IMG/VR virus record: IMGVR_UViG_3300036831_000090
Span: 1 to 54,879 of that record
Length of the DNA: 54,879 nt
From: a virus
Strand: one strand, 5' to 3'
The notes below the pieces were generated by a model. It did not search any database, was not told where the DNA came from, and saw nothing but the letters and a program-made list of their open reading frames with translations. The translations under genes and the position numbers were made by a program. The number at the start of each line of letters is the position of its first letter. The stretch's first letter is position 1. Shown piece after piece: positions 3,889 through 37,495 of the stretch.

Positions 3889-4047
3889 CTAGTTTACTTT
3901 TAAGAGGAGCCAGCGGCCTTTCGGATCCCGTTTGACGCGGAATCCGAGATGCAAAATGAAGCCGGAGCTACACCAACGCTTGATGGTGATGGGATTTTTT
4001 TGATACTCGCGGGCTATCGTTGATACCGGAACCCAGTTCTCGGTCAT
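3889..4047 (-). CDS. Small HTH/excisionase-like DNA-binding protein
   Basis: 52 residues starting at ATG 4047, which overlaps the portal stop by four bases (ATGA). Residues 8-32 (STIAREYQKNPITIKRWCSS) read as a helix-turn-helix of the MerR/excisionase type, followed by a basic beta-like wing (LGFRVKRDPKGRWLLLKV). Such proteins bind DNA as small regulators or recombination directionality factors. No integrase is present, so a regulatory role is more likely. Its place inside the head-gene operon is unusual. Confidence 0.6.
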   Translation of the reverse strand: MTENWVPVSTIAREYQKNPITIKRWCSSGFILHLGFRVKRDPKGRWLLLKVN

Positions 4048-6185: not shown

Positions 6186-6400
6186 TATTCGGCCACCAAC
6201 TGCCCGTCGATAGGATAGGCTTCGAAAATCTGCCAGCCCAGTGTCGGCGGTTCCAGCATGTCGCCACCGTACCAGTGGCACTTTTCAACAACGCGGATTT
6301 TCGTCAGCCAGCGCGTTTTGCCGTCCTCACACTCGATCGGAAACCACGCGAATATGACTCGCTCGCGGGTGTCGCCGTCGGATTTTGTTTTCCATTCCAT
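6185..6400 (-). CDS. Hypothetical protein, 71 residues
   Basis: Soluble, aromatic-rich protein (five W, including EKCHWYGGDMLEPPTLGWQ), beginning MEWKTKSDGDT. It is coupled to both neighbours by one-base overlaps. The composition suggests a compact beta fold. No family recognised. Confidence 0.5.
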   Translation of the reverse strand: MEWKTKSDGDTRERVIFAWFPIECEDGKTRWLTKIRVVEKCHWYGGDMLEPPTLGWQIFEAYPIDGQLVAE

Positions 6401-6753
6401 TATTGCTTCGTGACTTTTATACCTTCGAGCGGAATCCTCGACAATTCCAGTTTTCCGGTCAGCCAGTCGGAAATCACTTCCGCCGGATTCTCGGTCTCCA
6501 CCGGATTCTCCGAATTCTTCATCTGCTCTTTGACCTTGAAGACCATTTCCATGTGGTCCTTCATGTTCGTATAGGTCGGCACGAGTTCGCTGGCGTTCTT
6601 GCAGAGTGCTCGCCGTAAATTACGGCAAGCGTTGTTCCAGCTTTTGTCGGCGTCGCGGTTGAACTTCGCCCACATCTTGTCGTAGGACTTGCGGGCGCGA
6701 TTGGCCATCGCTTCGAAGTCTTGCGGCACCGGGCTTGATATCGACTTGGCCAT
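6400..6753 (-). CDS. Hypothetical helical protein, 117 residues
   Basis: ATG at 6753 overlaps the upstream TGA by one base (TGATG). The product is mostly helical and basic in the N-terminal half (NRARKSYDKMWAKFNRDADK), with an acidic middle. It is one of several small genes between TerL and portal. An assembly or packaging accessory role is possible but unproven. Confidence 0.5.
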   Translation of the reverse strand: MAKSISSPVPQDFEAMANRARKSYDKMWAKFNRDADKSWNNACRNLRRALCKNASELVPTYTNMKDHMEMVFKVKEQMKNSENPVETENPAEVISDWLTGKLELSRIPLEGIKVTKQ

Positions 6754-7004
6754 CACATTTTCAGGTTGGAAAGGATTTTACGGGTGCGCGCCTCATTGTG
6801 GATGTCGCCGCGGGCCTGCGCTATTTTCTGCTGCGCGAGAAGCAGTTCCAGGTGGTTCTCTAGGAGCCGCTTCGCCCGTTCGATGATCGACAGCGCGTAC
6901 TCGATATTGATTTCCGGCGCGTTAATGTCGAGGTCGTAGTTGCCATCGAGATGCTGCACGAGTTCAATGCGGACTACGTTTTCCGATGCTTCCGATTCTG
7001 CCAT
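6753..7004 (-). CDS. Hypothetical protein, 83 residues
   Basis: ATG 7004 overlaps the preceding stop. The N-terminal half is beta-like and acidic (VVRIELVQHLDGNYDLDINA), followed by a helical heptad-rich half (LENHLELLLAQQKIAQ) that could dimerise. No recognised family. Confidence 0.5.
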   Translation of the reverse strand: MAESEASENVVRIELVQHLDGNYDLDINAPEINIEYALSIIERAKRLLENHLELLLAQQKIAQARGDIHNEARTRKILSNLKM

Positions 7005-7804
7005 TACGCCCCCACGTTTGCTTGCGCACAACCGCTAGATTTTGGATTCTTGCAGTCGGAATGATGAACGTCCTGCTCGCTGCGAAACCACAGCGGGCCA
7101 GTTCCGTTCCATGAATTCGTCCATGGTGAGTAACCCCATGTAAATCGTCCGCCACAATCCGCACAGCGCGAGAAAGCCCAGCGCTTGAACTGATCTACTG
7201 GTTGGCACTGCAATTTCCAGTGCCAGAAATGCCAGCGCACGTGACGATACCAAGGACGACGTTCGCGGAGGATGTATCGGGCGATGGCACGGAAGAACTG
7301 TTCGGCGTGGTATTGGCGGTCTTCTACGCGATCCTCGTCTCGATTGCTACTCCATCCCGGCAGAAACGATAGTGATGTTCGGAAATTATCGACGGGGTTG
7401 CCGAGCATTTCACAGGCCCAAGATTCTGCTTCACTGAACGAGACTCGTTTCGTCGGAGGTTCGCATAAATGCTCTTTCGAGAGCACTTTTCCAACGATGA
7501 CAAACGCCTGCCGCAAAAGGGTCTCGGCTTCGGTCGGACTCTCTATCTGCTTTCCGAGAAACTTCTGAAAGTACGGTTCCCGCGCCTCGTCACCGGAAAT
7601 GCTTTTGATTCGAGAGACCTGATCCTTGCTGAGTTTGGGAGCAAACCAGCCACACGAGTCGTCGGTGCCGTCGGCTTCTGGATCAACGTGCCAGATCGTA
7701 ATGAACGTATGCCGATAACCCTTCGGAAAGAGTTTTAAGTTGCCGGGAGATTTGTCGCGCCACGGATACTTGATCTCGAACGCGACTGTCATCGGGTCGT
7801 GCAT
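7004..7804 (-). CDS. Hypothetical protein with C-terminal zinc-binding motif
   Basis: 266 residues, soluble and rich in W, R and F. A CADCGG knuckle near residue 213 and HHSDC near residue 247 could form one zinc site. The N-terminal part (around residues 30-60) is beta-like. It sits between a 145-residue gene and the small pre-portal genes, overlapping the former by one base. No catalytic motif is visible. Confidence 0.5.
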   Translation of the reverse strand: MHDPMTVAFEIKYPWRDKSPGNLKLFPKGYRHTFITIWHVDPEADGTDDSCGWFAPKLSKDQVSRIKSISGDEAREPYFQKFLGKQIESPTEAETLLRQAFVIVGKVLSKEHLCEPPTKRVSFSEAESWACEMLGNPVDNFRTSLSFLPGWSSNRDEDRVEDRQYHAEQFFRAIARYILRERRPWYRHVRWHFWHWKLQCQPVDQFKRWAFSRCADCGGRFTWGYSPWTNSWNGTGPLWFRSEQDVHHSDCKNPKSSGCAQANVGA

Positions 7805-8241
7805 TACGCCTCTCTCTGCTGCCGCGCGTTGCGGGCCATGTCCTCGCGCAAGAGTGATGCTATCCTACGCTTTTGTAAAGTGGCTTCCATCGCGGCGAGT
7901 TTTTCGTTGTCTAAAGTGGAACCTTTGCCGCGAACCGCGTCGAAGTTAATTTCCTGCTCCTCGGCGGGTTTCTTCTTGATGGGGTCGGCGGCAATCACTT
8001 CTTTTCCCATCTGCTTTTCCGGTCGCGCAATGAAAACTTCCCCGAAGCCACCCATGTGGGTGCGCAGAACAAGTTCCTGCTTTTTCGAATCCCAGTCCTT
8101 GAGCAGCGTCACCGACTGGTCGATCACGTCGATCTGGTCGCCACGGATTCGGAGTTCGCCACCGTTTTGACGGCACAGCGCTGCGATGATTTTTACGAGG
8201 TAGGCTTCGAGGCTGGCTTCACCACGGTTATAGGCCGGCAT
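7804..8241 (-). CDS. Hypothetical helical protein, 145 residues
   Basis: Mixed N-terminal domain (residues 1-75) followed by a long charged helix (around residues 100-145, ending ARNARQQREA). It is located just after the terminase gene. The charged C-terminal helix could mediate oligomerisation. No family recognised. Confidence 0.5.
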   Translation of the reverse strand: MPAYNRGEASLEAYLVKIIAALCRQNGGELRIRGDQIDVIDQSVTLLKDWDSKKQELVLRTHMGGFGEVFIARPEKQMGKEVIAADPIKKKPAEEQEINFDAVRGKGSTLDNEKLAAMEATLQKRRIASLLREDMARNARQQREA

Positions 8242-8254
8242 TTATGGCTCCAAC

Positions 8255-8533
8255 TCAAATCGTAGTCTGATCTTCTTTTACTGCATAATTCCTGCCACGT
8301 ATTTTAGAAATTTTCCCGGTAGCGTCCGAACAGTTTAGGGTTTCTGGATCGAATTCAAATCCGAGGCAATCTCTGCCGATGAGTTTCAAAAGTTTATTTT
8401 GGTAATGACGCCAAAGGAATCTTTTCCAAATAGAATCAAGAATAATTCTGTTCCACATCTGTTCTTGATCTTCGGCATAACAGAGATTTTTTATTTTTAT
8501 CGCCGTAATCCTATAATCTTTATCCTCGCTCAT
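8255..8533 (-). CDS. AT-rich small gene between terminase and head genes
   Basis: 92 residues, rich in I, K, N and Y, with no signal peptide. The base composition is visibly more AT-rich than its neighbours on both sides, which suggests a recently acquired insertion. It overlaps the TerL stop by four bases, so it is still co-translated. No recognised family. Confidence 0.5.
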   Translation of the reverse strand: MSEDKDYRITAIKIKNLCYAEDQEQMWNRIILDSIWKRFLWRHYQNKLLKLIGRDCLGFEFDPETLNCSDATGKISKIRGRNYAVKEDQTTI

Positions 8534-10332
8534 ATCCCCGCCAATCGGTCGATTTTCCTTCGGCCAGTGCCCTTCATAAAAGTTTGCTGCTGGTGACTCA
8601 GGCCCGCGCGTGTCATGTTATTCCAGAGTTCTTTCCGAAGCGTTCCCGCCATCTCATCTTTGGGCTGAATGTTCAGCGACGCCAACATTTCCTTCGGCGT
8701 GTTCGATTCCATCGTGTTTTTCGGAGCGTACTTGTATCGCGCAGGAGGATACTGTTCTTTCGTCAAAACCGCAATCATCCAGGCAACGGCAATGTCGTCG
8801 TGGTCGCGCATCACTTCCCAGCGCCATTCCTTGATGGTCATAAGCGCCAACTGGCTCATCAGGGCGCGGTCGTTGATGACCAGAGCTCCGGCTTCATTCT
8901 TGAGACCCATGCGGATTCCGCTTCGTGCGGCGTCGACGATCAGCCGGCGCGTCGCCTGATTCATTTCGAAGCCGAGAGCAAAACTCTTGTCCCGGCCGCG
9001 CTTGCGGTCGTCGCGGCCCTTCCAGCGGTAAATCTTTGGGTAGCGGTATTCGTCGCGCAACTTCACAAGCGCCCAGCGGCCCAGGTTTCCGGTGAGTTCG
9101 ACATTCACCATCGCGAGGTTGTAGAAGCGCCCGACCATATCGAGTTGCTGCGCGAGGACTTCGGGCGCGATGCGTTCGGCGAAGCGGCAGGCCAGTTCCC
9201 CGGTCTCGCCGCAAATGCCAACGTAAGCCGCGAAGTCCCCTTCCTCAGTTCCGAGCGCGGCGTCGGCGCCGAAGAAGTAATGCAATCCGTCGCTGCGCTT
9301 TTCCGGGTTGTAGGGAAACTTCCAAACGAATAGCGGTCCATTGTCGTCCTTCTCGAACACGACGCTGTTGTTTATGCCGCGGTGTAGCGATCCCCGCGCA
9401 ATAGGATCGCGCACCGTGCTCTCGGCGTAGGCCAATTCCTCGCGCGGGAACGCCGGGAATCCCGACACCTGAAAAGCGACTTCCGGACAATGTGGATAGT
9501 CGGTCAGCCACTTCACTTCCTGATCGCGGCAGTCGTCGGCCTTGGTTCGGCGCATCCATGCGATTTGCTCTCGGGTAGCATTGAACGGCGGAAGCATTAA
9601 TTCTTTTTCGAGGTCGTCTTTCGGGGCGTCGGAGGCTTCTTCTTCCGGTCGGCGGCACTGCGGGTCGTTCAGCCAGCCGAGGAACATCGGAATGTATCCG
9701 TTCGCGCCCTTGACGGCGTTATCCCAGTATTCCGAAAACGCGGCGCCGGGTCCTTCTCTGCCGTTCGCCGTCGATTCGATCACCACAATGGAGCCTTCGC
9801 CCTTCGACACCGAAGAAATCATGGCCGTAAACGATTCGTCCGACGGATAAAAGGCCGCCTCGCTGAGATGAAGTGCCGACAACGTGCCACCGCGCCCAGC
9901 CGACGGCGTTCCCGCGGTGGCCATCGTGATATTGCTTTCGCCGCCCTTGTGCGGGAATCGCAGCCGCTTTTGCTGTACGTCTTCGAGCGCGAAGCCGGGG
10001 AAGGCGCGCGACAGGTCGGACGGCACGCGGAAAAGCTCCTCGGCTGATCCCGCGAGGTGCGCCACGATCTTCGCGTTCATGTTCGGATAGGCGAGGCAGA
10101 AGGCCCACATCATTGCGTCGGTCTGAGCGGATACGCCGACGCGCCGGGCTTTAAGGTCAATGATGCGGATTTTCTTTTCGCGCTTCCACTGCTCGGACAT
10201 CACACGCCAACGGATATTCTGGTTGGGATTGAAATTGAACGAGGTCATGCGGTGGGTGCCGATGTCCTTGATCGGTAGGTGCGCGAGGAGTTGGCGGGAA
10301 CGGTGGAGCCAGTTTGGTTCTTCGGCTTTCAT
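8530..10332 (-). CDS. terL: Terminase large subunit
   Basis: 600 residues. The ATP-driven packaging motor and nuclease would cut concatemers and pump DNA through the portal. An ATPase N-terminal half has an arginine-rich Walker A-like segment (LKARRVGVSAQT, residues 60-71), a Walker B-like segment (ALHLSEAAF, about 153-161) and a coupling motif (VVIESTANG, about 183-191). The C-terminal half holds an RNase H-fold nuclease, with the metal-binding region starting at FFGADAALGTEEGD and later VELTGNLGRWALVKL. The start ATG overlaps the stop of the upstream mini-gene (ATGA). No typical small terminase is obvious next to it. Confidence 0.9.
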   Translation of the reverse strand: MKAEEPNWLHRSRQLLAHLPIKDIGTHRMTSFNFNPNQNIRWRVMSEQWKREKKIRIIDLKARRVGVSAQTDAMMWAFCLAYPNMNAKIVAHLAGSAEELFRVPSDLSRAFPGFALEDVQQKRLRFPHKGGESNITMATAGTPSAGRGGTLSALHLSEAAFYPSDESFTAMISSVSKGEGSIVVIESTANGREGPGAAFSEYWDNAVKGANGYIPMFLGWLNDPQCRRPEEEASDAPKDDLEKELMLPPFNATREQIAWMRRTKADDCRDQEVKWLTDYPHCPEVAFQVSGFPAFPREELAYAESTVRDPIARGSLHRGINNSVVFEKDDNGPLFVWKFPYNPEKRSDGLHYFFGADAALGTEEGDFAAYVGICGETGELACRFAERIAPEVLAQQLDMVGRFYNLAMVNVELTGNLGRWALVKLRDEYRYPKIYRWKGRDDRKRGRDKSFALGFEMNQATRRLIVDAARSGIRMGLKNEAGALVINDRALMSQLALMTIKEWRWEVMRDHDDIAVAWMIAVLTKEQYPPARYKYAPKNTMESNTPKEMLASLNIQPKDEMAGTLRKELWNNMTRAGLSHQQQTFMKGTGRRKIDRLAGI

Positions 10333-11559: not shown

Positions 11560-11693
11560 TCCGATTCCTGCGGGATTTATACCACCGATACGATAAATGG
11601 GTAATGGAAGTAGGTTACCTGCTGCATCCAGAATGGCGGAAGCTCGACGAAATGATCGCAATAATTGATAAATTAGAGAAAAACAAATCGTGA
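11511..11693 (+). CDS. Small helical hypothetical protein
   Basis: 60 residues, helical and charged (VIRFLRDLYHRYDKWV, ending IDKLEKNKS). The stop overlaps the GTG start of the next gene (GTGA). Function unknown. Confidence 0.5.
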   Translation: MSRSRGSKVASTGEQVIRFLRDLYHRYDKWVMEVGYLLHPEWRKLDEMIAIIDKLEKNKS

Positions 11694-12124
11694 TCGAGCG
11701 AGGACTTTGCGATGCGTGCGCGAACGGCAATCACTCCGCCTGTTCCAGTATCGGCTGCATCTGCGGGCACAGAATCGCAGAACGTAAACGGGAAGCTGTT
11801 CCACAAGGAACGTCGAGCACGTCGCCGCTCGTTTGCCCGAATTGCTCGAAGGTTCCGCGAAATGGAGACACGTTTTGCCGCGCCGACGGGTCACGACTGA
11901 CGCTTGGTAGCCGATGCTCCTGCGGGCATGGGATGGAACAAGAAGACTGGTTCTGCGGGGCGTGCGGTAAGCGGCGGGAAATACCGACGAAGCAATCGGA
12001 GCCCATCATCGACGGAAACGCGGAAATAGCCTCCGACGAATTCAAGCACATGGAAGAAGAACTGGCAGCGAAGGCCAAGGCCCGACCGTCGGACGTGGAA
12101 GTAGCGGCAACGGAGGTTCGATGA
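11690..12124 (+). CDS. Multi-zinc-ribbon protein
   Basis: 144 residues from GTG 11690. Several paired cysteines (CDAC, CSSIGCICGH, CPNC, CSCGH, CGACGK) suggest at least two zinc ribbons in the first 95 residues, followed by an acidic helical tail. Such proteins usually bind nucleic acid or act as adaptor modules. It is coupled by overlaps to both neighbours. The specific role is unknown. Confidence 0.6.
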   Translation: MIERGLCDACANGNHSACSSIGCICGHRIAERKREAVPQGTSSTSPLVCPNCSKVPRNGDTFCRADGSRLTLGSRCSCGHGMEQEDWFCGACGKRREIPTKQSEPIIDGNAEIASDEFKHMEEELAAKAKARPSDVEVAATEVR

Positions 12125-12387
12125 GCGAAATCACACAGGGACTTGTCGATCGGATTATCGCCGACCGCCCATTTAAGCTAAACGCCGAGGAAGTGAATTA
12201 CCGACCGGCCAATGGTGAGGACCCTTGCGACACCTGCATCCACCTGTTCAAGCGCGTGCTCGACGGATTCCACACTTGTGAAATTTTCAGAGATGAACAG
12301 ACAGACGAAAAGGGCGTCGACCCCACCTACGTCTGCGACTTCTGGAACGACGGAAAAGAGACCGAAGATGCGCACAGTAAATCCTGA
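12121..12387 (+). CDS. Hypothetical Cys-containing protein
   Basis: 88 residues, acidic, with CDTCIHLFKR and later CEIF and CDFW, four or five cysteines in positions compatible with a metal site. It starts inside the previous stop (ATGA overlap). No family recognised. Confidence 0.55.
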   Translation: MSEITQGLVDRIIADRPFKLNAEEVNYRPANGEDPCDTCIHLFKRVLDGFHTCEIFRDEQTDEKGVDPTYVCDFWNDGKETEDAHSKS

Positions 12388-12457: not shown

Positions 12458-12621
12458 TCCCGAAACTCAAAGAACCGATTCCGCCACCGAAACCTGGATC
12501 AATCGTCGTATACGATGTGCCCAGTTGGCTTGACCGGAATTATAGGCTCATCATGCTTTTGTCGATGTTCGCGGAACTTGCTCTCCTCGCGGTCTTGGTG
12601 GTGCTCGAATGGAAAAGGTAG
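12454..12621 (+). CDS. Small membrane protein with proline-rich N-terminus
   Basis: 55 residues from GTG 12454 (GTGA overlap). The N-terminus is proline-rich (KEPIPPPKPGS), followed by a hydrophobic helix of about 20 residues and a short basic end. It is paired with the preceding membrane peptide, so they may form a complex at the membrane, where the glycan cassette would act. Function unknown. Confidence 0.5.
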   Translation: MIPKLKEPIPPPKPGSIVVYDVPSWLDRNYRLIMLLSMFAELALLAVLVVLEWKR

Positions 12622-13208
12622 ACCTGTTTATTAGGACTTTCGAACCGGGAGTACCCGACCTCGGTTGGGGCAGCCTCGGCATCCGACGCGGGATGGCAAT
12701 GTCGGTTACGGCTCGATGGGCTCTCCAACCCGACGTGCATCCCACCATCTTGTGTAACGAATTTTACTCAACTGCGCTCGACATTCGAATCGTCGACCAT
12801 ATCGGCTTCCACATGAAAAGTAAGCGCGCCGCCGAGCGCCTGTCTAAGTCTCCTGTCTATGTGGTCTGCGACGATGACTGCTTAATCCTCCAAAAAAACT
12901 TTATTTCTATGGGCTTGATGGCGATGCGATCTTTTCCTGAATTCGGAATGATTGGTGGATGGAATATCACCGATGATCCTGACTGTTCGGGCCATGCTGG
13001 TTTAGTCGAGAAGGACCCCGGAGGGATTGTCTTCGTTCGCAAGGGAATTCTCACCGATTTCGAGGATCACGGTGCCGATAAAGTCGACGGATCACTGGCC
13101 GATGAAATGCGCCGGAAGGGACACAAGGTAGGCGTAACACAGGTGTCAAAATTTAATCACATTGGGTCCGGCTACTCTCTGACGAGCAAAGGAAACTGGA
13201 ACGCATGA
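12609..13208 (+). CDS. GT-A type glycosyltransferase-like protein
   Basis: 199 residues. A VVCDDDCLI segment (DDD at residues 88-90) matches the metal/nucleotide-sugar DxD motif of GT-A glycosyltransferases. The flanking beta-like strands fit a compact catalytic core, although it is shorter than typical family 2 enzymes (about 250-300). It opens the glycan-type cassette and overlaps the following gene by four bases. It would transfer a sugar from a nucleotide-sugar donor; the acceptor is unknown. Confidence 0.6.
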   Translation: MEKVDLFIRTFEPGVPDLGWGSLGIRRGMAMSVTARWALQPDVHPTILCNEFYSTALDIRIVDHIGFHMKSKRAAERLSKSPVYVVCDDDCLILQKNFISMGLMAMRSFPEFGMIGGWNITDDPDCSGHAGLVEKDPGGIVFVRKGILTDFEDHGADKVDGSLADEMRRKGHKVGVTQVSKFNHIGSGYSLTSKGNWNA

Positions 13209-13594
13209 GATTCAGTCCGAAACTAGAACCGTTTCGTTTGCGCGATGGTCCATACGCTTCTGATCCTGGCAGCGATTATGGTGCATTCTTAATCCCCGGT
13301 CCAAAAGGCGCAGACCTGCGCGTGATTGCCTCTCCCGGCGATGCCGACGAAAACATTCCTTGGGAACACGTCAGCGTCTCGACGACGCACCGATGCCCAG
13401 ATTGGCCGGAGATGTGTTTCATCAAAGAACTGTTTTGGGACGAAGAAGAAACCGTAATGCAACTTCATCCGCCGAAATCCCAATGGATCAACAATCACAA
13501 TTTCTGTTTGCATCTTTGGAAGCCGACGAATGCGGAGATTCCGCTTCCCCCTAGCAATACGGTGGGGAATAAAGAACTCGGCGTCCTGAAATGA
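13205..13594 (+). CDS. DUF7694 domain protein
   Basis: 129 residues. The C-terminal half has the pattern CFIKELFWDEEETVMQLHPP followed by NHNFCLHLW, which I recognise as a DUF7694-type phage family of unknown function. Conserved W, H and C residues look like a compact small domain. It is coupled by ATGA overlaps between two glycosyltransferase-like genes, so it may be a cassette component, though it also occurs in other phage settings. Confidence 0.65.
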   Translation: MRFSPKLEPFRLRDGPYASDPGSDYGAFLIPGPKGADLRVIASPGDADENIPWEHVSVSTTHRCPDWPEMCFIKELFWDEEETVMQLHPPKSQWINNHNFCLHLWKPTNAEIPLPPSNTVGNKELGVLK

Positions 13595-14580
13595 AAAAAT
13601 CACTCGTGGTCACCACGATCCAAGCTCCGACCACCGCCATGCGCAAGCTGGCCGAGGGAGCCATCGCGCACGGGTTCGACTTCCACGTTGTCGGCGACGA
13701 GAAGACTCCCAAGGACTTTGATCTGTCGGGCGCGGCGTATTACGGCACGGGACTCCAATCCACATTGGAATTTAAGATCGTCTCCAAACTGTCACCGAAC
13801 AGCTACGCCCGTAAGAACATCGGATACCTAGTGGCGATGGGATTGGGTGCCGACATTATCAAGGAAACCGACGACGACAATTCGCCCCTGCCGACCTTTT
13901 GGAATGAACCGAAGCGAACCGTAAAAGCCTACATCCAACACAAATGCTGGGTGAATCCCTACCAGTGGTTTACGTCGTCGAAAGTGTGGCCGCGAGGACT
14001 GCCGCTCGATGAAGTGGGTCCGAAAGTTCTGTCGTCGGAGTCGGCGGATGCGGACTGCCCCATTCAACAGGGACTTGTGAACGGTGATCCTGACGTCGAC
14101 GCCATCTTTCGATTGACGGCCTTGCCGATGCGCGATTTTCGGGAGAGCGGGATCCGCATTGCTGTCGGCGAGGGAGCATGGTGCCCATTCAACAGTCAGA
14201 ACACGCTCTGGTTTCAGGATGCGTTTCCGCTGATGTATCTGCCGTCGACGTGCAGCATTCGGTTGACCGACATCTGGCGCAGCTTCGTCGCCCAGCGGAT
14301 TTGTTGGGAGCACGGATGGTCGGTGCTGTTTCATGGGCCGACCGCAGTTCAAGAACGAAACCCGCACAACTTGATGAGGGATTTTGAGCACGAGATTCCT
14401 GGCTACGTGTGGAACAAATATATCGCCGAACAACTGGAATCCCTGTCTCTTGGGAAGTCGATCGCGTCTGACTTGGTTGCTTGCTACGAACTCCTCTGCA
14501 AGATGGAGTTACTGACTCCGGCCGAAATGCCTATTCTCGAAGCGTGGCTTGAGGACGTAGGAGGATTATGGCAAAAGTAA
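13591..14580 (+). CDS. STELLO/DUF288-like glycosyltransferase
   Basis: 329 residues. The segment ARKNIGYLVAMGLGADIIKE followed by TDDDN (DDD at residues 94-96) is the hallmark pattern of the STELLO (DUF288) group, with a donor/metal-binding acidic triplet. A glycosyltransferase role is inferred from the fold. It overlaps the radical SAM gene by 13 bases. It lacks a signal peptide or membrane segment, so it acts in the cytoplasm, on a glycan, lipid or protein acceptor that cannot be read from sequence. Confidence 0.65.
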   Translation: MKKSLVVTTIQAPTTAMRKLAEGAIAHGFDFHVVGDEKTPKDFDLSGAAYYGTGLQSTLEFKIVSKLSPNSYARKNIGYLVAMGLGADIIKETDDDNSPLPTFWNEPKRTVKAYIQHKCWVNPYQWFTSSKVWPRGLPLDEVGPKVLSSESADADCPIQQGLVNGDPDVDAIFRLTALPMRDFRESGIRIAVGEGAWCPFNSQNTLWFQDAFPLMYLPSTCSIRLTDIWRSFVAQRICWEHGWSVLFHGPTAVQERNPHNLMRDFEHEIPGYVWNKYIAEQLESLSLGKSIASDLVACYELLCKMELLTPAEMPILEAWLEDVGGLWQK

Positions 14581-15926
14581 TTTTAGTTGGGGGTCCCTCA
14601 TTTGAGCTTTTTAATCCGTCGCTTCACGCTTCTCTCGGAACACTTTATCTCGGGGCCGCGCTCCGTGCTGCGGGCCATGAAGTCAAGATTCAGGACTGCC
14701 ATAAACTCTGCTCATTCGCAGATGGCAAGCTGGATGTGAACACGGACCTTCTGGAGCCGTGCGACGTGCTCGGTGTGTCGATCGTGACGCCCAACGCGGA
14801 GTTTGGCGGACAATTGGCCGCCGCTTGGCCGGCGAAATACAAGGTGGCCGGTGGCCCGCATGTAACCTACATCATTGAAGGCCCGCACGAGCAGTTCAAA
14901 AAGAAATCGTACTTCGAGGGATTCGACTACCTGATGACGGGAGAATGTGAGGAATCCTTTGTCGCATTTGTGGATGAAATTCGGCGAGGCGGGTCTGAAT
15001 CATCCCTTCGCCGTGTTCCTGGTGTGGTTTGGTTTGACGGTCTTGGTTATCACCACATGCCTTCTCCGCCTTTACCAGACGTCACGAAAATGGCCATGCC
15101 CGCGTACGACCTTTGGGAAAACTACTCCTCCGGCGGGCTCCAAGTCGCTTCCAAGAGCGGAAAGTCTATCGACGCCGAGGAACGGAAAATTGGTAGTCTT
15201 TGGACCGCGCGCGGTTGCCCATACGGGTGCCACTTCTGCGCCGACGCCCGCACCAAACTCCGCGAGGAAACCTTTGAGCAGATCGAGAGGGAAGTTAGGG
15301 CACTTGCCGACCTGGGAGTAACAGCGCTACGGGTGTGGGACGACGTGCTGACGATCAAGGACAAGCGATGTCGGGAACTAGCGGCCCTGTTCCATGACTA
15401 CGGGATGCTGTGGCGCGGCTGGAGCCGGGTGAACCTGATGAATCCGACACTGTTCCAGTATCTCGCCACGAAGGGTTGCACGGAGATGGGATTTGGTGTT
15501 GAGCACGGCTCTGCTCGGATGCTGAAGGAAATGAACAAGGGAACGACGCCCGAAGCCAACGAGAAGGGCATCAAGATTTGTCAGGATGCGGGAATCGTAG
15601 CGCGAGCCTACCTGCTCATCGGCTTTCCCGGCGAAACGTGGGAGTCGATCTACGAGATGCGGGATTGGCTGGCGCAGGTAATGCCGGATGCGGCGAGTCT
15701 TCACAGTTTTCAACCCTACCCAGGGTGCGATGTCTGGAACCGTCCGGAACATTATGGCGTGAAGGTTTCCGCGCAAACATTTTCTTCCATGTGGGAACTG
15801 TCCGAAGACGAAAGCACCTGCACGCTGGAAATTCCGACGATGACGAAATCAGAAGTAGTCGAGGCCCGCAAGTATCTACACGAATGGATCACTGAAAACA
15901 TTTCCCTGCGACCCGTGAACCGATGA
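14568..15926 (+). CDS. Cobalamin-binding-type radical SAM enzyme
   Basis: 452 residues. N-terminal Rossmann-like domain (residues 1-140) of the B12-binding type: a flavodoxin-like start VILVGG, then GAALRAAGHEVKI. The radical SAM core has the CxxxCxxC iron-sulphur motif (Cys217, Cys221, Cys224) and later GFGVEHGSARMLKEMNKGTT and LIGFPGET. Class B radical SAM enzymes methylate unreactive carbons, phosphinates or other positions. The classical DxHxxG cobalamin motif is not obvious, so B12 may bind differently or not at all. Its substrate is probably made by the surrounding glycosyltransferases. Confidence 0.75.
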   Translation: MAKVILVGGPSFELFNPSLHASLGTLYLGAALRAAGHEVKIQDCHKLCSFADGKLDVNTDLLEPCDVLGVSIVTPNAEFGGQLAAAWPAKYKVAGGPHVTYIIEGPHEQFKKKSYFEGFDYLMTGECEESFVAFVDEIRRGGSESSLRRVPGVVWFDGLGYHHMPSPPLPDVTKMAMPAYDLWENYSSGGLQVASKSGKSIDAEERKIGSLWTARGCPYGCHFCADARTKLREETFEQIEREVRALADLGVTALRVWDDVLTIKDKRCRELAALFHDYGMLWRGWSRVNLMNPTLFQYLATKGCTEMGFGVEHGSARMLKEMNKGTTPEANEKGIKICQDAGIVARAYLLIGFPGETWESIYEMRDWLAQVMPDAASLHSFQPYPGCDVWNRPEHYGVKVSAQTFSSMWELSEDESTCTLEIPTMTKSEVVEARKYLHEWITENISLRPVNR

Positions 15927-16615
15927 ACCTGTCCGTCGTGATGACCACAAGGAACGACTCCCGGCAGGCGAATTTCCTGCAAGCGATTCGGCAATTCAAG
16001 AAACTGGATGCGGAGATCGTGGTCGTCGAGTGGCATCCGCTCCTGAACAACCAACCTTTGTGGAACACGGTCGAAGGCGTTCGTATTATCACCGTGCCCG
16101 GCGACGGCAAGTTCGAGGAATTTAAGGCCAAGAATGTCGGCATCCGTCGGGCGAAGGGAGACTTTATCCTCTCGACCAATCCCGACATCCTTCTCTCGCA
16201 GGAAATGATCGACTGGCTGAATCAGGTTCCTACGAAGTTGCGACAGGATTGTTTCTATCGGGCGAACCGGCACGACCTCGATGAAGAAGGAAATGTTTTC
16301 AACATCCACCGGAATACGATGTGCGACCGCGTACACCACACGAATGCCGCGGGCGACTTCATGCTGATGCACCGCAGCCAGTGGGATTATTTGCGGGCAT
16401 ACCTGGAGCTAGAAACTACTGATATGGTCGACGCCTATATCATCCACCACGCAATCCGGCGCAGCGCGTTGAAACAAGTAATCCTCGAAGAACCGATCTA
16501 CCATCTGCCGCATCCCGTGAGTTTTACTCCGAGCGCCGTGTTTCGCGACGAAATGAATAATTCGTGGAACGAAGAAAGTTGGGGCATGGCCGGAGTCGAG
16601 TTGGAGGAATCTTGA
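15923..16615 (+). CDS. Family 2-like glycosyltransferase
   Basis: 230 residues. It starts with the GT-A-like MNLSVVMTTRNDSRQ and contains FKAKNVGIRRAKGDFILSTN, where the usual DxD is replaced by a TNPD sequence (around residues 89-92). The altered acidic motif could mean a different metal requirement or a non-canonical transferase. It overlaps the next gene's TTG start. Confidence 0.65.
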   Translation: MNLSVVMTTRNDSRQANFLQAIRQFKKLDAEIVVVEWHPLLNNQPLWNTVEGVRIITVPGDGKFEEFKAKNVGIRRAKGDFILSTNPDILLSQEMIDWLNQVPTKLRQDCFYRANRHDLDEEGNVFNIHRNTMCDRVHHTNAAGDFMLMHRSQWDYLRAYLELETTDMVDAYIIHHAIRRSALKQVILEEPIYHLPHPVSFTPSAVFRDEMNNSWNEESWGMAGVELEES

Positions 16616-17613
16616 AAGTTGCGGTCCTCAGTCCGACGGTCCTTGCGATCTACGAAAAGATGGCGGTCCTGTTTCCCGACGAGGGAATTGATGTGGTCGG
16701 CCCGCGCATCGACGACAACCCGCCCGAGCGGCTGTTCGAGATTCAACGCCGTGTGCGCGAGTGGGCGGAAGTTGGGCTTCAGATTCGATTCGTCGACAAA
16801 CCGTACTCCGAGATTGATTTCTCCGGCTACGACTTGCTAATCGAAACCGTGGAAACCTTTCAGTACGCCGAGGATTGGAAAAACCACTGCACCCGCGTCG
16901 AATGCCCGATCATCGTATCGTCCTGCTGGTACGATTCTCCGCGCACGCTAATTCCGTCGGGATATATCGAAGCCGTGAGGAAGTTTCCAGTCGTCGTGCA
17001 GATGCCAGCGAACTTAGCGGGATGGCGGGCTTCTCCGTTTGCCGATGTCACGGCTATCGTCAATCCGGTCGGCGAGTGGTACTTCGATGAGCCGTGGACG
17101 GGCGACAACGGTAAAGCTCTCTACGTTCTTGCTGGCAAAGACCTGTGGCGTCCCGCGGATAAGCGTGTACTGGGGCTCGACATTGTGGAGCGATTGCAAG
17201 AGCGGTTCCCCAGCCGGATTCTACACCACGACGGCGCCGTAAACTACCTGACGCCGAAAGAACTGGGAAAGTTGTATGCTTCGTCGCGCGTGTTCCTGCA
17301 ACTGGATGATCCGGATTCGGGAAGGCCGCTGTGCGGAACTTTTACCGAGGCGGTCGCGGTCGGGTGCCCGGTGCTGACGAAATCATCGACAGCAATGGAC
17401 TACACGAAATACGTGAACGGAAACGGATTGATGACGAACGACTTCGAGCAGATGTGTACGTTCATCAATCTTCTGTTCACCGATGATTCGCTGGCGCAAA
17501 TCGCCAGTCACAACGGTCGCGAAATAGGACGAGAACATTTCTCCTACGCCGCCGTCCGACCCCAGTACGACGCCCTGATCCACCGCGCCCAGGAGGCGTT
17601 TCGAAGCCGATGA
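16612..17613 (+). CDS. GT-B-like glycosyltransferase
   Basis: 333 residues from TTG 16612 after TTGGAGGAAT, in preference to an upstream in-frame ATG inside the previous gene. It begins with a Rossmann-like strand (MKVAVLSPTVLAIYEKMAVLF) and has a C-terminal domain with the pattern LYASSRVFLQLDDPDSG then GTFTEAVAVGCPVLT, the acidic/glycine motif of GT4-type enzymes. It is probably cytoplasmic, using a nucleotide sugar. The acceptor is unknown. Confidence 0.65.
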   Translation: MKVAVLSPTVLAIYEKMAVLFPDEGIDVVGPRIDDNPPERLFEIQRRVREWAEVGLQIRFVDKPYSEIDFSGYDLLIETVETFQYAEDWKNHCTRVECPIIVSSCWYDSPRTLIPSGYIEAVRKFPVVVQMPANLAGWRASPFADVTAIVNPVGEWYFDEPWTGDNGKALYVLAGKDLWRPADKRVLGLDIVERLQERFPSRILHHDGAVNYLTPKELGKLYASSRVFLQLDDPDSGRPLCGTFTEAVAVGCPVLTKSSTAMDYTKYVNGNGLMTNDFEQMCTFINLLFTDDSLAQIASHNGREIGREHFSYAAVRPQYDALIHRAQEAFRSR

Positions 17614-18443
17614 TCTCCATTCTCTTGCCGAGCCGCAAACGTGGTCCTGAACTGCTACGAATGGTCTCATCTATTTGGACGACGAAGGCCACTCCTAAAA
17701 TTGAAATCGTAATTCGGTTTGATGAAGATGACACAGAGACTATCTACGGATTTAGGAATCACGGCGATTGGACAACTCTTGATATTAAAATTCTGGTCGG
17801 CCCACGAATCCGAAAAAGGACCCAGTACTGGAATGAGTGTTTTACGGCATGCTCTGGAGACATTGTGTGCCAGGCCAATGACGATTGTGTCTGGAGAGAT
17901 GACGGATGGGATTTGCTTGTCGAGAACGCATTCGCCGAATGCCCCGACCAGATTCTCGTGGTCCACGGAGACCACCTTGGCGGATATGACGGCAGACTCT
18001 TTGGTCCGCATCCATTTACCAGCCGCAAGTGGGTTGAGACCGTCGGTTACTTCACGCCGCCACACTATTCTTCCGACCACGGGGATACTTTTTTGAACGA
18101 TGTAGCGAACGCGCTCGGACGCCGCAGATTCTTGCCGTTCGTCCTGGAACATATGCATTTCGGCACAGGCAAGTCGGAACTCGATGAAACCTATCGCGAC
18201 AGGCTGAAAGACCATGACGAAGATAACCCCGAGGCACTATACGTGTCGCATCTGCCGGAGCGCGTTGAAGCGGCCAATAAACTTGGAGCCGTGATGGTTC
18301 CCCCTCGCAGAATCATAGCGTCGCGCTTTAGTCCGCACCGCGGCGCTGGTGAATGTCCTAAGTGTCAATCGCAGTCGACCGTGTTTCAGGATAATGGTAT
18401 CGCTTGTAATTCTTGCGGCCATCGGTGGGCGTTCCGACGATGA
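17610..18443 (+). CDS. GT-A glycosyltransferase-like protein with C-terminal zinc ribbon
   Basis: 277 residues. The N-terminal domain follows the GT-A pattern (MISILLPSRKRGPELLRMV, then NDDC at residues 90-93). The last 35 residues hold a zinc ribbon (CPKC, then CNSCGHRW) separated by about 13 residues. The same architecture recurs in the protein at 18873. The local base composition is a little more AT-rich than the cassette upstream. The zinc ribbon might recruit a nucleic acid or protein acceptor. Confidence 0.6.
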   Translation: MISILLPSRKRGPELLRMVSSIWTTKATPKIEIVIRFDEDDTETIYGFRNHGDWTTLDIKILVGPRIRKRTQYWNECFTACSGDIVCQANDDCVWRDDGWDLLVENAFAECPDQILVVHGDHLGGYDGRLFGPHPFTSRKWVETVGYFTPPHYSSDHGDTFLNDVANALGRRRFLPFVLEHMHFGTGKSELDETYRDRLKDHDEDNPEALYVSHLPERVEAANKLGAVMVPPRRIIASRFSPHRGAGECPKCQSQSTVFQDNGIACNSCGHRWAFRR

Positions 18444-18456
18444 ATCAGAGGATTTT

Positions 18457-18882
18457 GTGAAAGCTAGGGGACCCGATAACGGAAAGTTTAAGCACGGCCA
18501 CAACGGTGCGTCAGGGAAAAGTCCGACGTATATCTCATGGGACATGATGCTCCACAGGTGCAGCAATCCCAAATACGGTGCGTATAAATTCTACGGCGGG
18601 CGTGGTATTCGAGTCTGCAAACGGTGGAGAGTATTTCATAATTTTCTAGCCGACATGGGTGAAAGGCCAGTGGGGACTAGTTTGGATAGAATTAAGACCA
18701 ATGGGAATTATGAGCGTTCAAATTGCCGATGGGCCACGCCATCTCAGCAGCATAGGAACATGAGAAGTAATATCTGGATCGAGACCGATGGAAAGAGGTT
18801 GATTTTAGCGGACTGGGCCAGATTGCTGCGAGTGAATCGTGAAACACTACGGCACCGGTACAAGGTTGGCCTATGGCCTTAA
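18457..18882 (+). CDS. HNH-type homing endonuclease-like protein
   Basis: 141 residues from GTG 18457 after cAGAGGAttttGTG. The core matches a common free-standing phage HNH-related family: TYISWDMMLHRCSNP, KFYGGRGIRVCKRW, FLADMGERP, TSLDRIKTNG, NCRWATPSQQHRN. The C-terminal tail ends with a helix-turn-helix-like segment (RLLRVNRETLRHRYKVG). It sits between two similar glycosyltransferase genes and overlaps the second by ten bases, suggesting a mobile intruder. Confidence 0.7.
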   Translation: MKARGPDNGKFKHGHNGASGKSPTYISWDMMLHRCSNPKYGAYKFYGGRGIRVCKRWRVFHNFLADMGERPVGTSLDRIKTNGNYERSNCRWATPSQQHRNMRSNIWIETDGKRLILADWARLLRVNRETLRHRYKVGLWP

Positions 18883-19547
18883 AATGGCAGATTCTAACTC
18901 TTACGATGCCGACGCGAGTGGAATTCCTCGCAGGTCTAAGGAAAATACTAGAACCTCAGTTGAGGGATGGTGTCGAGTGGATTGTGAAGGTGAGTGACCC
19001 ATCCATTTCTCTCGGTGCGAATCGGGAACAGATGCGTCGAGATTCCACGGCTGAATATATAAATTTTTGCGATGATGATGACGAATTGAGTCCGAACTAT
19101 GTGGCCCGTATCCTACCGCTCTTAGATCGAGATTATGTTGGCTTCTGGCTGCAGGCTTTCGAAGACGGCGTACCACTTCCCAAGAGAACGAAACACTCCC
19201 TGACCTGCAATGATTGGTTCGAAGGCGATCAATTTTATGGGCGGGATATTTCACATTTGAACCCCATAAAACGGGAACTTGCAATTCAGGTTCCGATTTA
19301 TGGTGGCTTCGGAGAAGATTCGCGGTGGGCTGGAGACATTCGAAAACTAAAGATCGTACAGACCGAACGGTTCGTCGACGACGTGATGTATTACTACTAC
19401 TCGCGGACCGACAAAACGGATGGAGTGAAACCCGGTAGATTCAGTGCCGGAGTTTGCCCGCACTGCGGTAGTGAGTCGACGGTCGTAGTGGACCGCGAGA
19501 TGGTTTGTAACGCTTGCGCTGCCCGTTCTGAATTTCATATTTCCTAA
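18873..19547 (+). CDS. GT-A glycosyltransferase-like protein with C-terminal zinc ribbon
   Basis: 224 residues. FCDDDDELSP (DDDD at residues 67-70) is a GT-A metal/donor motif, and the C-terminal end carries CPHC then CNAC, a zinc ribbon as in the gene at 17610. The two proteins share this two-part design and may be diverged copies. It overlaps the HNH gene and precedes the dehydrogenase by eight bases. Confidence 0.6.
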   Translation: MALKWQILTLTMPTRVEFLAGLRKILEPQLRDGVEWIVKVSDPSISLGANREQMRRDSTAEYINFCDDDDELSPNYVARILPLLDRDYVGFWLQAFEDGVPLPKRTKHSLTCNDWFEGDQFYGRDISHLNPIKRELAIQVPIYGGFGEDSRWAGDIRKLKIVQTERFVDDVMYYYYSRTDKTDGVKPGRFSAGVCPHCGSESTVVVDREMVCNACAARSEFHIS

Positions 19548-19555
19548 GAGGGTGA

Positions 19556-20359
19556 ATGAGAATCTGCGTTGTCGGACTCGGGAAAGTGGGCCGTCCGTTA
19601 CTCGAAACCTTGCGCCGCTTCCACGGCCAGGTGGTTGGCTACGACATCAAGCCTTCCGTGTCCGAGGGTTCCGTATCCCAGTGCGTCACCGCTTCCGACT
19701 GCGCCATCTTCATCGTGCAGACGCCATCGAAGGAAGACGGATCGTTTTCGAATGATTATCTTTTGTCGGCGCTTCGCGCCTTTAAGGCCGCGGCCGGCAA
19801 GCAGGGGAAGGACCACTACCTGTTCATCGTTACGAGCACGACCGTCCCGGGATCGTGCGAGGAGTTTTCGAAGATTGTCGGGAAGCGGCTGGTCTACAAC
19901 CCGCTGTTCATCCGGCTGGAGTTCATCGACGAGGATCTTCTGAATCCCAGTTTCCTTTTGTTCGGGGCGTCGAATCCTGATTACGCGATAGAAGCGCTTT
20001 CCATCTACCGGCCGATTACCGCCTGCCCGTCGATCACGATGACATGGACCGAGGCCGAGCTCGCGAAGATCACCTTGAACTGCGCGCTGACCGCTAAAAT
20101 TTCTCTCGCGAATCAGTTGTACCTGGTGGCCGAGCGGATGGGATGCAACCCGAAGAAGATCATGCAGGCAGTCGGCATGGACCCGCGCATCGGTCAAGCC
20201 TACCTGACTCCTGGCTGGCCATTTTCCGGTCCGTGCCTGCCCCGCGATGGACGTATGTTTCAATACGTCGCCGACAAAGCGGGAACCGACGCGCCGCTGG
20301 CCGCCGCCGTCGACGAAATCAACAACCGCATGTATCGGGCGATCGTGAGGAAAAAATGA
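19556..20359 (+). CDS. Short UDP-glucose/GDP-mannose dehydrogenase-like protein
   Basis: 267 residues. N-terminal NAD-binding motif GLGKVG (residues 7-12), then TSTTVPGS, YNPLFI, a helix with Lys171 and Lys181, and a catalytic cysteine in FSGPCLPRD (Cys227). Family members of about 430 residues oxidise a nucleotide sugar to its uronic acid. Here the C-terminal sugar-nucleotide domain is missing, so it is either truncated, works with a partner, or has a different substrate. It is coupled to the lipoprotein gene by ATGA. Confidence 0.75.
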   Translation: MRICVVGLGKVGRPLLETLRRFHGQVVGYDIKPSVSEGSVSQCVTASDCAIFIVQTPSKEDGSFSNDYLLSALRAFKAAAGKQGKDHYLFIVTSTTVPGSCEEFSKIVGKRLVYNPLFIRLEFIDEDLLNPSFLLFGASNPDYAIEALSIYRPITACPSITMTWTEAELAKITLNCALTAKISLANQLYLVAERMGCNPKKIMQAVGMDPRIGQAYLTPGWPFSGPCLPRDGRMFQYVADKAGTDAPLAAAVDEINNRMYRAIVRKK

Positions 20360-20601
20360 GACGCATTATGTTTGTCGCGCTTCTAACGCTGCTTTCCGGA
20401 TGTACCTATGCGAGCCATTCGACGAAAGTTCTGCTCGACGAAGGATATACCGATATTCACATCACTGGCTGGAGACCGTTCTCCTGTGGAGAGGGTGATT
20501 TTTATATGACCGGATTTAGCGCCAAAGGGCCATCGGGACGTCCTGTTACGGGCGTGGTTTGCGAAGGATTGTTCAAAAGCGCAACGGTGCGGCTCGACTG
20601 A
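20356..20601 (+). CDS. Small lipoprotein
   Basis: 81 residues. The N-terminal basic-hydrophobic leader ends in the lipobox LLSGC (Cys16), so the mature form would be lipid-anchored in the cell envelope. The remainder is a small beta-type domain (ITGWRPFSCGEGDFYMTG, then TGVVCEGLFKSATVRLD), which I recognise only as a small phage/bacterial exported type. It lies in the glycan cassette, overlapping both neighbours. Confidence 0.65.
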   Translation: MRRIMFVALLTLLSGCTYASHSTKVLLDEGYTDIHITGWRPFSCGEGDFYMTGFSAKGPSGRPVTGVVCEGLFKSATVRLD

Positions 20602-21347
20602 TGACCAACGACTCGAAAAAGTTCTGGCAAGAGCATCCCTGCGAGGCGTGGCACTCGCGTTCCGAAATCGGAACACGCGAATGGTCCGACGAAATCTCCA
20701 ACTGGCGCTACTTCGTGCAGCCGCACATCCCGCGCTTCGCGGAGTTCGGTAAGTGGCGAGGGAAAAGCGTCTTGGAGATCGGAACAGGGATCGGCACGGA
20801 TGCCTTGCGTTTTGGGGCCGCTGGCGCAAATGTTGTGGCGATTGACTTCTCCGGACATTCGATCGACCTAGCCAAAGGACGGCAGCGCAGATCTCAAATC
20901 GACTTCGAAATGTGGAACAGCGCCGAGGAAGACCTGCCGACCGGAAAATTCGACCTGATCTATTCCTTCGGGGTGCTGCATCATATGCGCGATCCCCTGG
21001 CCTGCCTGAAACTCGCGCGGCAGCGAATCAAGGCCACCGGCGAACTGCGCATCATGCTCTATGCCCGCTGGAGCCTGAAATTCCTCACCGGCCAGCAGCC
21101 GGAAGCCGCCGCGGGATGCCCGATCGTGAAACTCTACAGCGCGCGCACCGCCACGAAGCTACTCGCCGACGCCGGATTCGGAGTCATCGGCATCAAGAAA
21201 ACCCATGTGTTTCCGTGGGATGTGAAAGCCTACCGCGAAGGACAGTTCATTCCCCGCCGACTATACCGCTTCATGCCCGATGGGGTTTTTCACTGGCTGG
21301 AGTCGGTCGCGGGCCACCACCTCTTGATTTCTGCCCGACCGATCTAA
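20601..21347 (+). CDS. Class I SAM-dependent methyltransferase
   Basis: 248 residues. SAM-binding motif I VLEIGTGIG (residues 57-65), motif near VAIDFSG, and YSFGVLHHM around residue 128, typical of small-molecule methyltransferases. The start at ATG 20601 shares one base with the lipoprotein stop. The DNA methyltransferase catalytic DPPY/NPPY motif is not seen, so a sugar, lipid or small-molecule acceptor is more likely than DNA bases. It ends with CTAA overlapping the oppositely directed gene. Confidence 0.75.
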   Translation: MTNDSKKFWQEHPCEAWHSRSEIGTREWSDEISNWRYFVQPHIPRFAEFGKWRGKSVLEIGTGIGTDALRFGAAGANVVAIDFSGHSIDLAKGRQRRSQIDFEMWNSAEEDLPTGKFDLIYSFGVLHHMRDPLACLKLARQRIKATGELRIMLYARWSLKFLTGQQPEAAAGCPIVKLYSARTATKLLADAGFGVIGIKKTHVFPWDVKAYREGQFIPRRLYRFMPDGVFHWLESVAGHHLLISARPI

Positions 21348-37112: not shown

Positions 37113-37495
37113 GCCCGATCCGGCGGGAGTTGGGGATGCTGAAATCGGCGCTTCTGGCGTTCCTCCTCGATGCGGTGCATGGCCGCTTCTTTCCTCGATC
37201 GCGCTTCGCGCAGCATGTCCCACAGCATGAGTTTTCGGCCTTCGTCAGCCGCTTGCTTACTCATGGATGAACCGATGGCCTTCTCCTCGGCCTCGGCCTG
37301 GATGAATTGCACGTAGGGTTCGAACAGTTCGGAGAAGTCCTCGGCGCGCGGGATTCGCGGCCGCGCCATCCCGAGCCAAAATTCCGTCAGGAAGTCGTAA
37401 GCCGCGCCTCCGAGGACGTCGCTTGGGGTTTTGTTCTGTCCGCTGCGTTCGTCCAAGTTGCCCCCGTGGCCCTTGTGAGTTATTGAATCGTGCAA
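37109..37495 (-). CDS. Hypothetical protein between fibre and lysis genes
   Basis: 128 residues if it starts at TTG 37495 after TAGGATTT, overlapping the fibre stop by 16 bases; TTG 37456 would give 115. The N-terminal part holds a short soluble domain (VLGGAAYDFLTEFWLGMARP), then charged helices rich in E, R and K. Function unknown. Confidence 0.5.
   Translation of the reverse strand: MHDSITHKGHGGNLDERSGQNKTPSDVLGGAAYDFLTEFWLGMARPRIPRAEDFSELFEPYVQFIQAEAEEKAIGSSMSKQAADEGRKLMLWDMLREARSRKEAAMHRIEEERQKRRFQHPQLPPDRA

Follow-up and report, generated by a model that had tools for sequence, protein, structure and literature searches.

A radical SAM-containing glycan cassette exchanged between phages and the probable destination of its sugar

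Why should a phage of 55 kb carry a dozen genes for making and transferring a sugar, and where does that sugar go? The question is raised by IMGVR_UViG_3300036831_000090, a 54,879-bp virus record from a soil phage that was analysed over its whole length (hereafter, the window). An earlier note on this DNA had recognized ten or more tightly coupled genes read in one direction, and had proposed that they make a modified sugar and install it on the host surface, a virion protein or possibly DNA. The cassette (12609–21347) proved to contain twelve genes, all on the + strand, with overlaps of 1–13 bp between neighbours at nearly every boundary; as the note had held, it lies outside the virion and replication genes, flanked by the head/terminase genes (− strand) on one side and the early genes on the other. 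It encodes five to six glycosyltransferases (GTs), a B12-type radical S-adenosylmethionine (SAM) enzyme (rSAM), a two-domain sugar dehydrogenase (UGD), a methyltransferase (MT) and accessories, namely a DUF7694 protein, a lipoprotein and an inserted HNH endonuclease gene. Profile searches returned the families that had been named (DUF7694, STELLO, radical SAM with a weak B12-binding domain, GT-B (weak), GT2, UGD, lipoprotein and MT). The gene list was correct as far as it went, but it had missed the HNH endonuclease at 18349–18882, the GT-like protein at 12609–13208 and zinc ribbons on both GT2 proteins. These results support the notion of an operon-like cassette, borne by a phage, for making a modified sugar and transferring it.

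Searches of viral contigs with rSAM as the query returned 11 and then 14 contigs, mostly of 50–56 kb and one of 119 kb. In 13 contigs (15–56 kb, the 119-kb contig set aside), rSAM, the GT-B enzyme and the two GT2 enzymes, GT7 and GT9, occurred together wherever the contig was not cut, and UGD, MT, the STELLO protein and GT5 were present in most. No relative was confirmed in 84,980 bacterial and archaeal genomes, a scan made with two exact 7-residue patterns only, by which distant homologues could be missed. Because 13 independent viral contigs carry the core and no bacterial or archaeal match emerged from that two-pattern scan, we rejected the possibility, foreseen in the earlier note, that a bacterial polysaccharide locus had been captured through an assembly error. 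Among isolated phages in the phage collection, only distant matches were obtained (26% at best for rSAM), and a prophage search for the host found no match to the capsid protein in the genome collection.

The same cassette is carried on another backbone by two of the phages, G001 and G010, whose capsid and terminase are 45% and 38% identical, respectively, to those of the window lineage. The mean identities within and between the two lineages were 93 and 45% for the capsid protein and 77 and 38% for terminase, as against 81 and 82% for rSAM, 65 and 61% for the GT-B enzyme, 61 and 59% for GT7, 54 and 53% for GT9, 68 and 70% for UGD, and 55 and 55% for MT. In trees of the capsid protein and of terminase, G001 and G010 formed a fully supported sister pair; in that of rSAM, G010 grouped with G014, G013, G006 and G009, and G001 with G007. 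Conversely, G015 (capsid 89%) gave no match to rSAM or GT7, G016 (capsid 77%) carries another GT/FkbM set at the same site without rSAM, and G017 (capsid 43%) is also without rSAM. Because the cassette crosses backbones, while these three members of the window family lack rSAM, we read the site as an exchangeable glycan slot with rSAM as its most conserved content, and the cassette as a horizontally exchanged phage glycan module. The cassette-free G015 (L098) encodes a tyrosine integrase at 53049–53549; none was found in the cassette-bearing genomes searched.

The most conserved gene of the module is that for rSAM (14568–15926, +). It encodes a class-B (B12-type) radical SAM enzyme in which both the radical SAM core (PF04055, 1.3e-17, 64.9 bits against a cut-off of 29.5) and the CxxxCxxC motif (C217/C221/C224) were recognized, and the cysteine motif was invariant in 11 sequences (75–77% identity). 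The N-terminal B12-binding domain scored below the Pfam cut-off (PF02310, 1.6e-6, 28.4 bits against 32.1). The predicted structure was poor (pTM 0.47), and its top fold matches were the class B enzymes MgmA, TsrM, AprD4, CysS and TokK. AprD4 was also the best sequence match in the PDB; against the AprD4 equivalog NF033070, rSAM scored 54.7 bits for a cut-off of 500, and no equivalog cut-off was reached. More distant versions (53–70% overall; 53–56% to that of the window for L132, L133 and L134) were found in other phages, and no match to the capsid profile was found in those carrying L132, L133, L134 and the enzyme of L012. These four adjoin genes for a sugar nucleotidyltransferase, dTDP-glucose-dehydratase-like, C-methyltransferase, GDP-mannose-dehydratase-like, FkbM and GT proteins, several of these names scoring below the NCBI equivalog cut-offs. 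Because the distant versions thus occur in deoxysugar-type cassettes, rSAM very probably acts on a sugar.

Several features of these distant loci deserve mention in their own right. The rSAM gene of the 119-kb contig (L012, IMGVR_UViG_3300021479_000008, 6300–8717) contains an in-frame, intein-like insert of ~351 residues that begins with Cys, ends with HN before Cys and lies exactly ahead of the first cluster cysteine (C217 of the window), and the dTDP-glucose-dehydratase-like gene of L132 (1350–3557, a 735-aa frame) contains an apparent large in-frame intein-like insert. Repeats of a GGPGSG[R/C] motif were observed in proteins flanking the distant rSAM cassettes L012, L027, L132, L133 and L134, and a GGPGSG stretch also lies within a 1112-aa late protein of the window (52056, −). 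The surroundings differ in Streptomyces phage SF3 (L013, 11722–14296), where genes for a thymidylate kinase and a NUDIX hydrolase come after a distant B12/radical SAM gene (26%).

The second enzyme of interest, UGD (19556–20359, +), is an NDP-sugar-dehydrogenase-like protein of two domains, PF03721 and PF00984 only, in which an alignment to PDB entry 3vtf shows that the NAD motif and the catalytic Lys, Asn and Cys are retained. The UDP-binding C-terminal domain is absent from all ten phage copies, and a free UDP-sugar may therefore not be what UGD acts on. Against the nucleotide-sugar dehydrogenase model TIGR03026, which goes with a three-domain architecture, UGD scored 155.2 bits (cut-off 189.8). 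A scan of viral contigs with UGD as the query confirmed no relative, although relatives exist, its patterns having been taken from one divergent sequence. MT (20601–21347, +) resembles SAM-dependent methyltransferases of small molecules or sugars (phrog_22502, 1.8e-41), has a weak D-glucose O-methyltransferase match and is 41% identical to the methyltransferase in the glycan island of cyanophage Bellamy.

The two GT2 enzymes, GT7 (17610–18443, +; PF00535) and GT9 (18873–19547, +; PF00535, 1.8e-5), both end in a zinc ribbon (approximately residues 244–277 and 190–224, respectively) with the motif SAG-CPxCxSxSTV...CNxC. The predicted structure of GT7 is that of a GT-A enzyme (pTM 0.73), with GT-A folds matched in the PDB and viral libraries; its neighbours are the wall-teichoic-acid transferases TarP and RmlT, GalNAc-T2, and GT2 proteins of giant viruses and phages. 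The ribbon is present on both enzymes in all cassettes, with its cysteines kept in nearly all of 14 GT7 and 13 GT9 sequences, and is missing from the GT7/GT9 homologues of G016, which lacks rSAM. When 2.9 million viral contigs were scanned by pattern with tblastn confirmation, the ribbon was confirmed on GT7, on GT9 and, beyond these, only on a small protein encoded among the late genes of the same phages; the ribbon peptide had no match among isolated phages. In G006, G007, G013, G014 and three short contigs, the gene for the small protein lies next to those for scaffold and capsid. Compared with a profile of scaffold N-termini, the N-terminus of the small protein matched in G007 (E 5.7e-5) and weakly in G014 (0.0075) and G001 (0.065); this scaffold-like part is missing in G006, G013 and related fragments. 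That two of the GTs have this ribbon in common with a small capsid-operon protein of related phages points to the phage's own particle as the thing decorated with the unusual sugar, and on a simple reading the ribbon would be a docking tag that brings the two GTs to a late, probably head, protein. A more elaborate proposal, which we offer tentatively and regard as doubtful, is that an adaptor combining a scaffold-like N-terminus with a zinc ribbon recruits the tagged GTs to the procapsid, where a glycan with the rSAM sugar would be added; modules could then be swapped with the acceptor unchanged.

Taken as a whole, the evidence leads us to favour, with a probability of roughly one half, cytoplasmic glycosylation of a phage protein, likeliest a head or virion protein, with an rSAM-edited sugar by an exchanged glycan module. 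UGD, MT and above all rSAM would make or edit an unusual sugar (for example, by deoxygenation, epimerisation or C-methylation), the five to six GTs would assemble a short glycan containing it, and this glycan would be transferred in the cytoplasm onto the phage protein; in several phages, the matching late zinc-ribbon protein may bring both ribbon-tailed GTs to the acceptor. Of this, the gene content, the co-inheritance, the exchange between lineages, the lack of membrane enzymes and the common zinc ribbon were observed here, and the chemistry on the sugar, the acceptor and docking by the ribbon are inferences. No multi-span membrane protein was found in the cassette, and all of its proteins look cytosolic, indicating that neither a flippase nor a lipid-carrier (polyprenyl) transferase is among them. 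The usual place of the cassette in relatives is upstream of terminase, with which it is co-oriented. A cytoplasmic protein acceptor is favoured because of this missing membrane machinery, the co-orientation with terminase and the common zinc ribbon. Among the three targets named in the earlier note, virion protein thus comes to the fore.

Several observations weigh against cytoplasmic glycosylation of a virion protein. The cassette of the window is transcribed away from the late genes, and the structural model of rSAM is the poor one described above. Zinc ribbons may instead bind nucleic acid, and the GT9 tail has weak GATA-finger matches. The small zinc-ribbon gene of G001 sits away from the capsid gene; moreover, the window, G009 and G010 carry the cassette with no recognisable gene of this kind, and its product therefore cannot be a general docking partner. 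It was found in 5 of 10 complete genomes with the cassette and in none of 3 without it, a difference that is not significant (one-sided Fisher test, ~0.2) and numbers too small for linkage.

Ranked second, and in our judgement possible, is that the cassette remodels a host surface glycan (lipopolysaccharide, capsule or a teichoic-type polymer), excluding competitors or altering adsorption. Related MT, dehydrogenase, STELLO and GT genes are held in the glycan islands of cyanophages and pelagiphages, which are usually considered to concern host envelope glycans. TarP and RmlT, among the fold neighbours of GT7, are transferases of wall teichoic acid, the alternative GT set at the same site in G016 fits diversification against host surfaces, and a lipoprotein gene lies within the window cassette. 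However, this lipoprotein is not conserved, neither a flippase nor a polyprenyl-phosphate transferase nor any other membrane enzyme of multi-span type is encoded in the cassette, and lysogenic conversion is not indicated, given that the cassette-bearing genomes searched yielded no integrase. Host-surface remodelling also leaves the tie of the zinc ribbon to the late genes unexplained.

That the GTs glycosylate a modified base in the phage DNA, with the zinc ribbons as DNA-binding tails, is unlikely. Phage GTs can hypermodify DNA (Pyle 2024, as cited in PMC12619734; T4, PMC13216743), and zinc ribbons can bind DNA, with which the weak GATA-finger likeness of the GT9 tail would agree. However, a homologue of thymidylate synthase or dCMP hydroxymethylase (PF00303) was not found in 13 records by a search whose control worked, a C5-cytosine methylase occurs in one genome only, and the PHROG and Pfam scans of the window gave no base-hydroxylation step; Tet/JBP (PF12851) was likewise not found, in a search whose control was empty. 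DNA, the third target in the earlier note, is accordingly disfavoured. About as improbable is a module whose product is itself a small molecule, either a diffusible glycoside or a modified nucleotide sugar, serving for instance against competitors or host defence: its enzymes all look soluble and the nearest solved relatives of rSAM include the natural-product enzymes AprD4, TsrM, TokK and CysS, but five to six GTs, two of them with protein-like zinc-ribbon tails, would be excessive, and there is no exporter and no scaffold-building gene.

The remaining genes of the cassette are less conserved or less readily assigned. The first (g1, 12609–13208, +; 199 aa) has no Pfam or PHROG match and looks like a GT-A-like glycosyltransferase from its DDDC motif; it is optional, being also present in G001, G009, G010 and G016, with homologues of 33–41% identity in other cassettes. 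The DUF7694 gene (g2, 13205–13594, +; PF24746, 2.5e-27) is an accessory outside the conserved module, its sole relative (71%) lying on the other strand in L007, ~5.3 kb upstream of the rSAM gene. The STELLO/DUF288-like glycosyltransferase (g3, 13591–14580, +; PF03385, 5.5e-9) scored 35.8 bits against a Pfam gathering cut-off of 27.8 in a partial match (profile positions 1–102 of 387), and has homologues in most cassettes, the 119-kb phage and cyanophages. GT5 (g5, 15923–16615, +), a GT-A-like glycosyltransferase with no Pfam match, has homologues (31–37%) immediately or closely downstream of rSAM in most cassettes, and the GT-B glycosyltransferase (g6, 16612–17613, +; TTG start; Glyco_trans_1_2, 4e-4, weak) has homologues of 46–50% in related cassettes. 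The HNH (homing-type) endonuclease gene (g8, 18349–18882, +; phrog_3377, 1.1e-42) is not part of the pathway and may start at 18394, the only in-frame ATG near its start; genes of this type lie at differing junctions from phage to phage, as expected for a homing element. The small lipoprotein (g11, 20356–20601, +; LSGC lipobox, phrog_902) has no homologue in the relatives. With the DUF7694 protein and the lipoprotein not conserved, fewer genes make up the conserved core than the ten of the earlier note; STELLO, DUF7694 and the lipoprotein were dropped as core genes for incomplete conservation.

The site of the cassette is marked by two conserved neighbours, u1 and u2 (11690–12387, +), of which u1 (11690–12124) encodes a double-zinc-ribbon-like protein kept at the cassette boundary across the family. 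These neighbours lie on the strand opposite to the cassette in relatives and on the same strand in the window, indicating that the window cassette is inverted relative to its site. The gene order also differs, UGD-MT-STELLO-rSAM-GTs in relatives versus UGD-lipoprotein-MT at the end in the window. The late genes on the − strand include those for the major capsid protein (619–1623), portal (4044–5771) and terminase (8530–10332), with more structural genes at 37–55 kb, and RecT-like and replication genes occupy 24–36 kb on the + strand. Two late proteins of 1102 aa (37480–40788, −) and 766 aa (40804–43104, −) align to stretches of G007 and G009 that adjoin or coincide (up to 68%), which suggests a common, duplicated tail-fibre-like domain. 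The terminase of G003, G005 and G008 is split near residue 281 by ~1 kb within a 948-aa open frame, in an intein-like manner. No RNA families were found, and a defence system was rejected, the PADLOC matches being weak generic ones to radical SAM and methyltransferase.

Phage GT cassettes and virion glycosylation are already known (PMC12619734 and PMC11256854). In the open-access literature, we found no relevant description of radical SAM in phage glycan cassettes, let alone of a B12-type rSAM as the most conserved core of such a module, nor of a common zinc-ribbon tail tying GTs to a late-gene protein of the same phage. As far as we have seen, four features appear to be new: rSAM as the core, a dehydrogenase of two domains, exchange of the module between phages that are unrelated, and the link through the zinc ribbon. 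If correct, this would yield a rule, open to test, by which a phage selects what it glycosylates, together with a supply of enzymes for glycan editing that seem to be phage-resident rather than bacterial at the sensitivity tested.

Comparison with known systems places the module among several partial likenesses. Unlike gtrABC-type serotype conversion, in which a flippase and a polyprenyl-linked GT are encoded near the integrase of a temperate phage, it includes no hydrophobic multi-span protein and is accompanied by no integrase in the cassette-bearing genomes searched. UGD resembles UDP-glucose/GDP-mannose dehydrogenases (3vtf) in its NAD and central domains and catalytic residues, but its NAD domain is shortened and the UDP-binding C-terminal domain is missing. 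AprD4 (PDB 6fd2) is a radical SAM 1,2-diol dehydratase of the apramycin pathway that acts on an aminoglycoside sugar and works with the NADPH-dependent reductase AprD3 (PMC5461906). It shares with rSAM the B12-like plus radical SAM layout, and its pairing with AprD3 is loosely like that of rSAM with a dehydrogenase here; rSAM is, however, only ~18% identical to it in the fold alignment and falls far short of the 500-bit equivalog cut-off. The islands of T4-like cyanophages and pelagiphages (Bellamy, S-SCSM2R, Sf-CH8 and HTVC008M) encode related MT (41%), UGD (33%), STELLO (32%) and GT2 (30%) proteins. They differ in belonging to phages of 147–244 kb, in a longer UGD and in annotated epimerase, carbamoyltransferase or NAD-synthetase-like genes, with no close rSAM relative in the phage collection (26% at best). 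The earlier view that the cassette holds more biosynthesis than is usual applies to a phage of 55 kb, but these large cyanophages carry bigger glycan islands. A similar logic has been proposed for mycobacteriophages, where capsid and tail-tube subunits bear glycans with which phage GTs are associated (Freeman et al. 2023, described in PMC12619734 and PMC11256854). To GTs such as those described there the window module adds rSAM, a dehydrogenase, a methyltransferase and zinc-ribbon tails.

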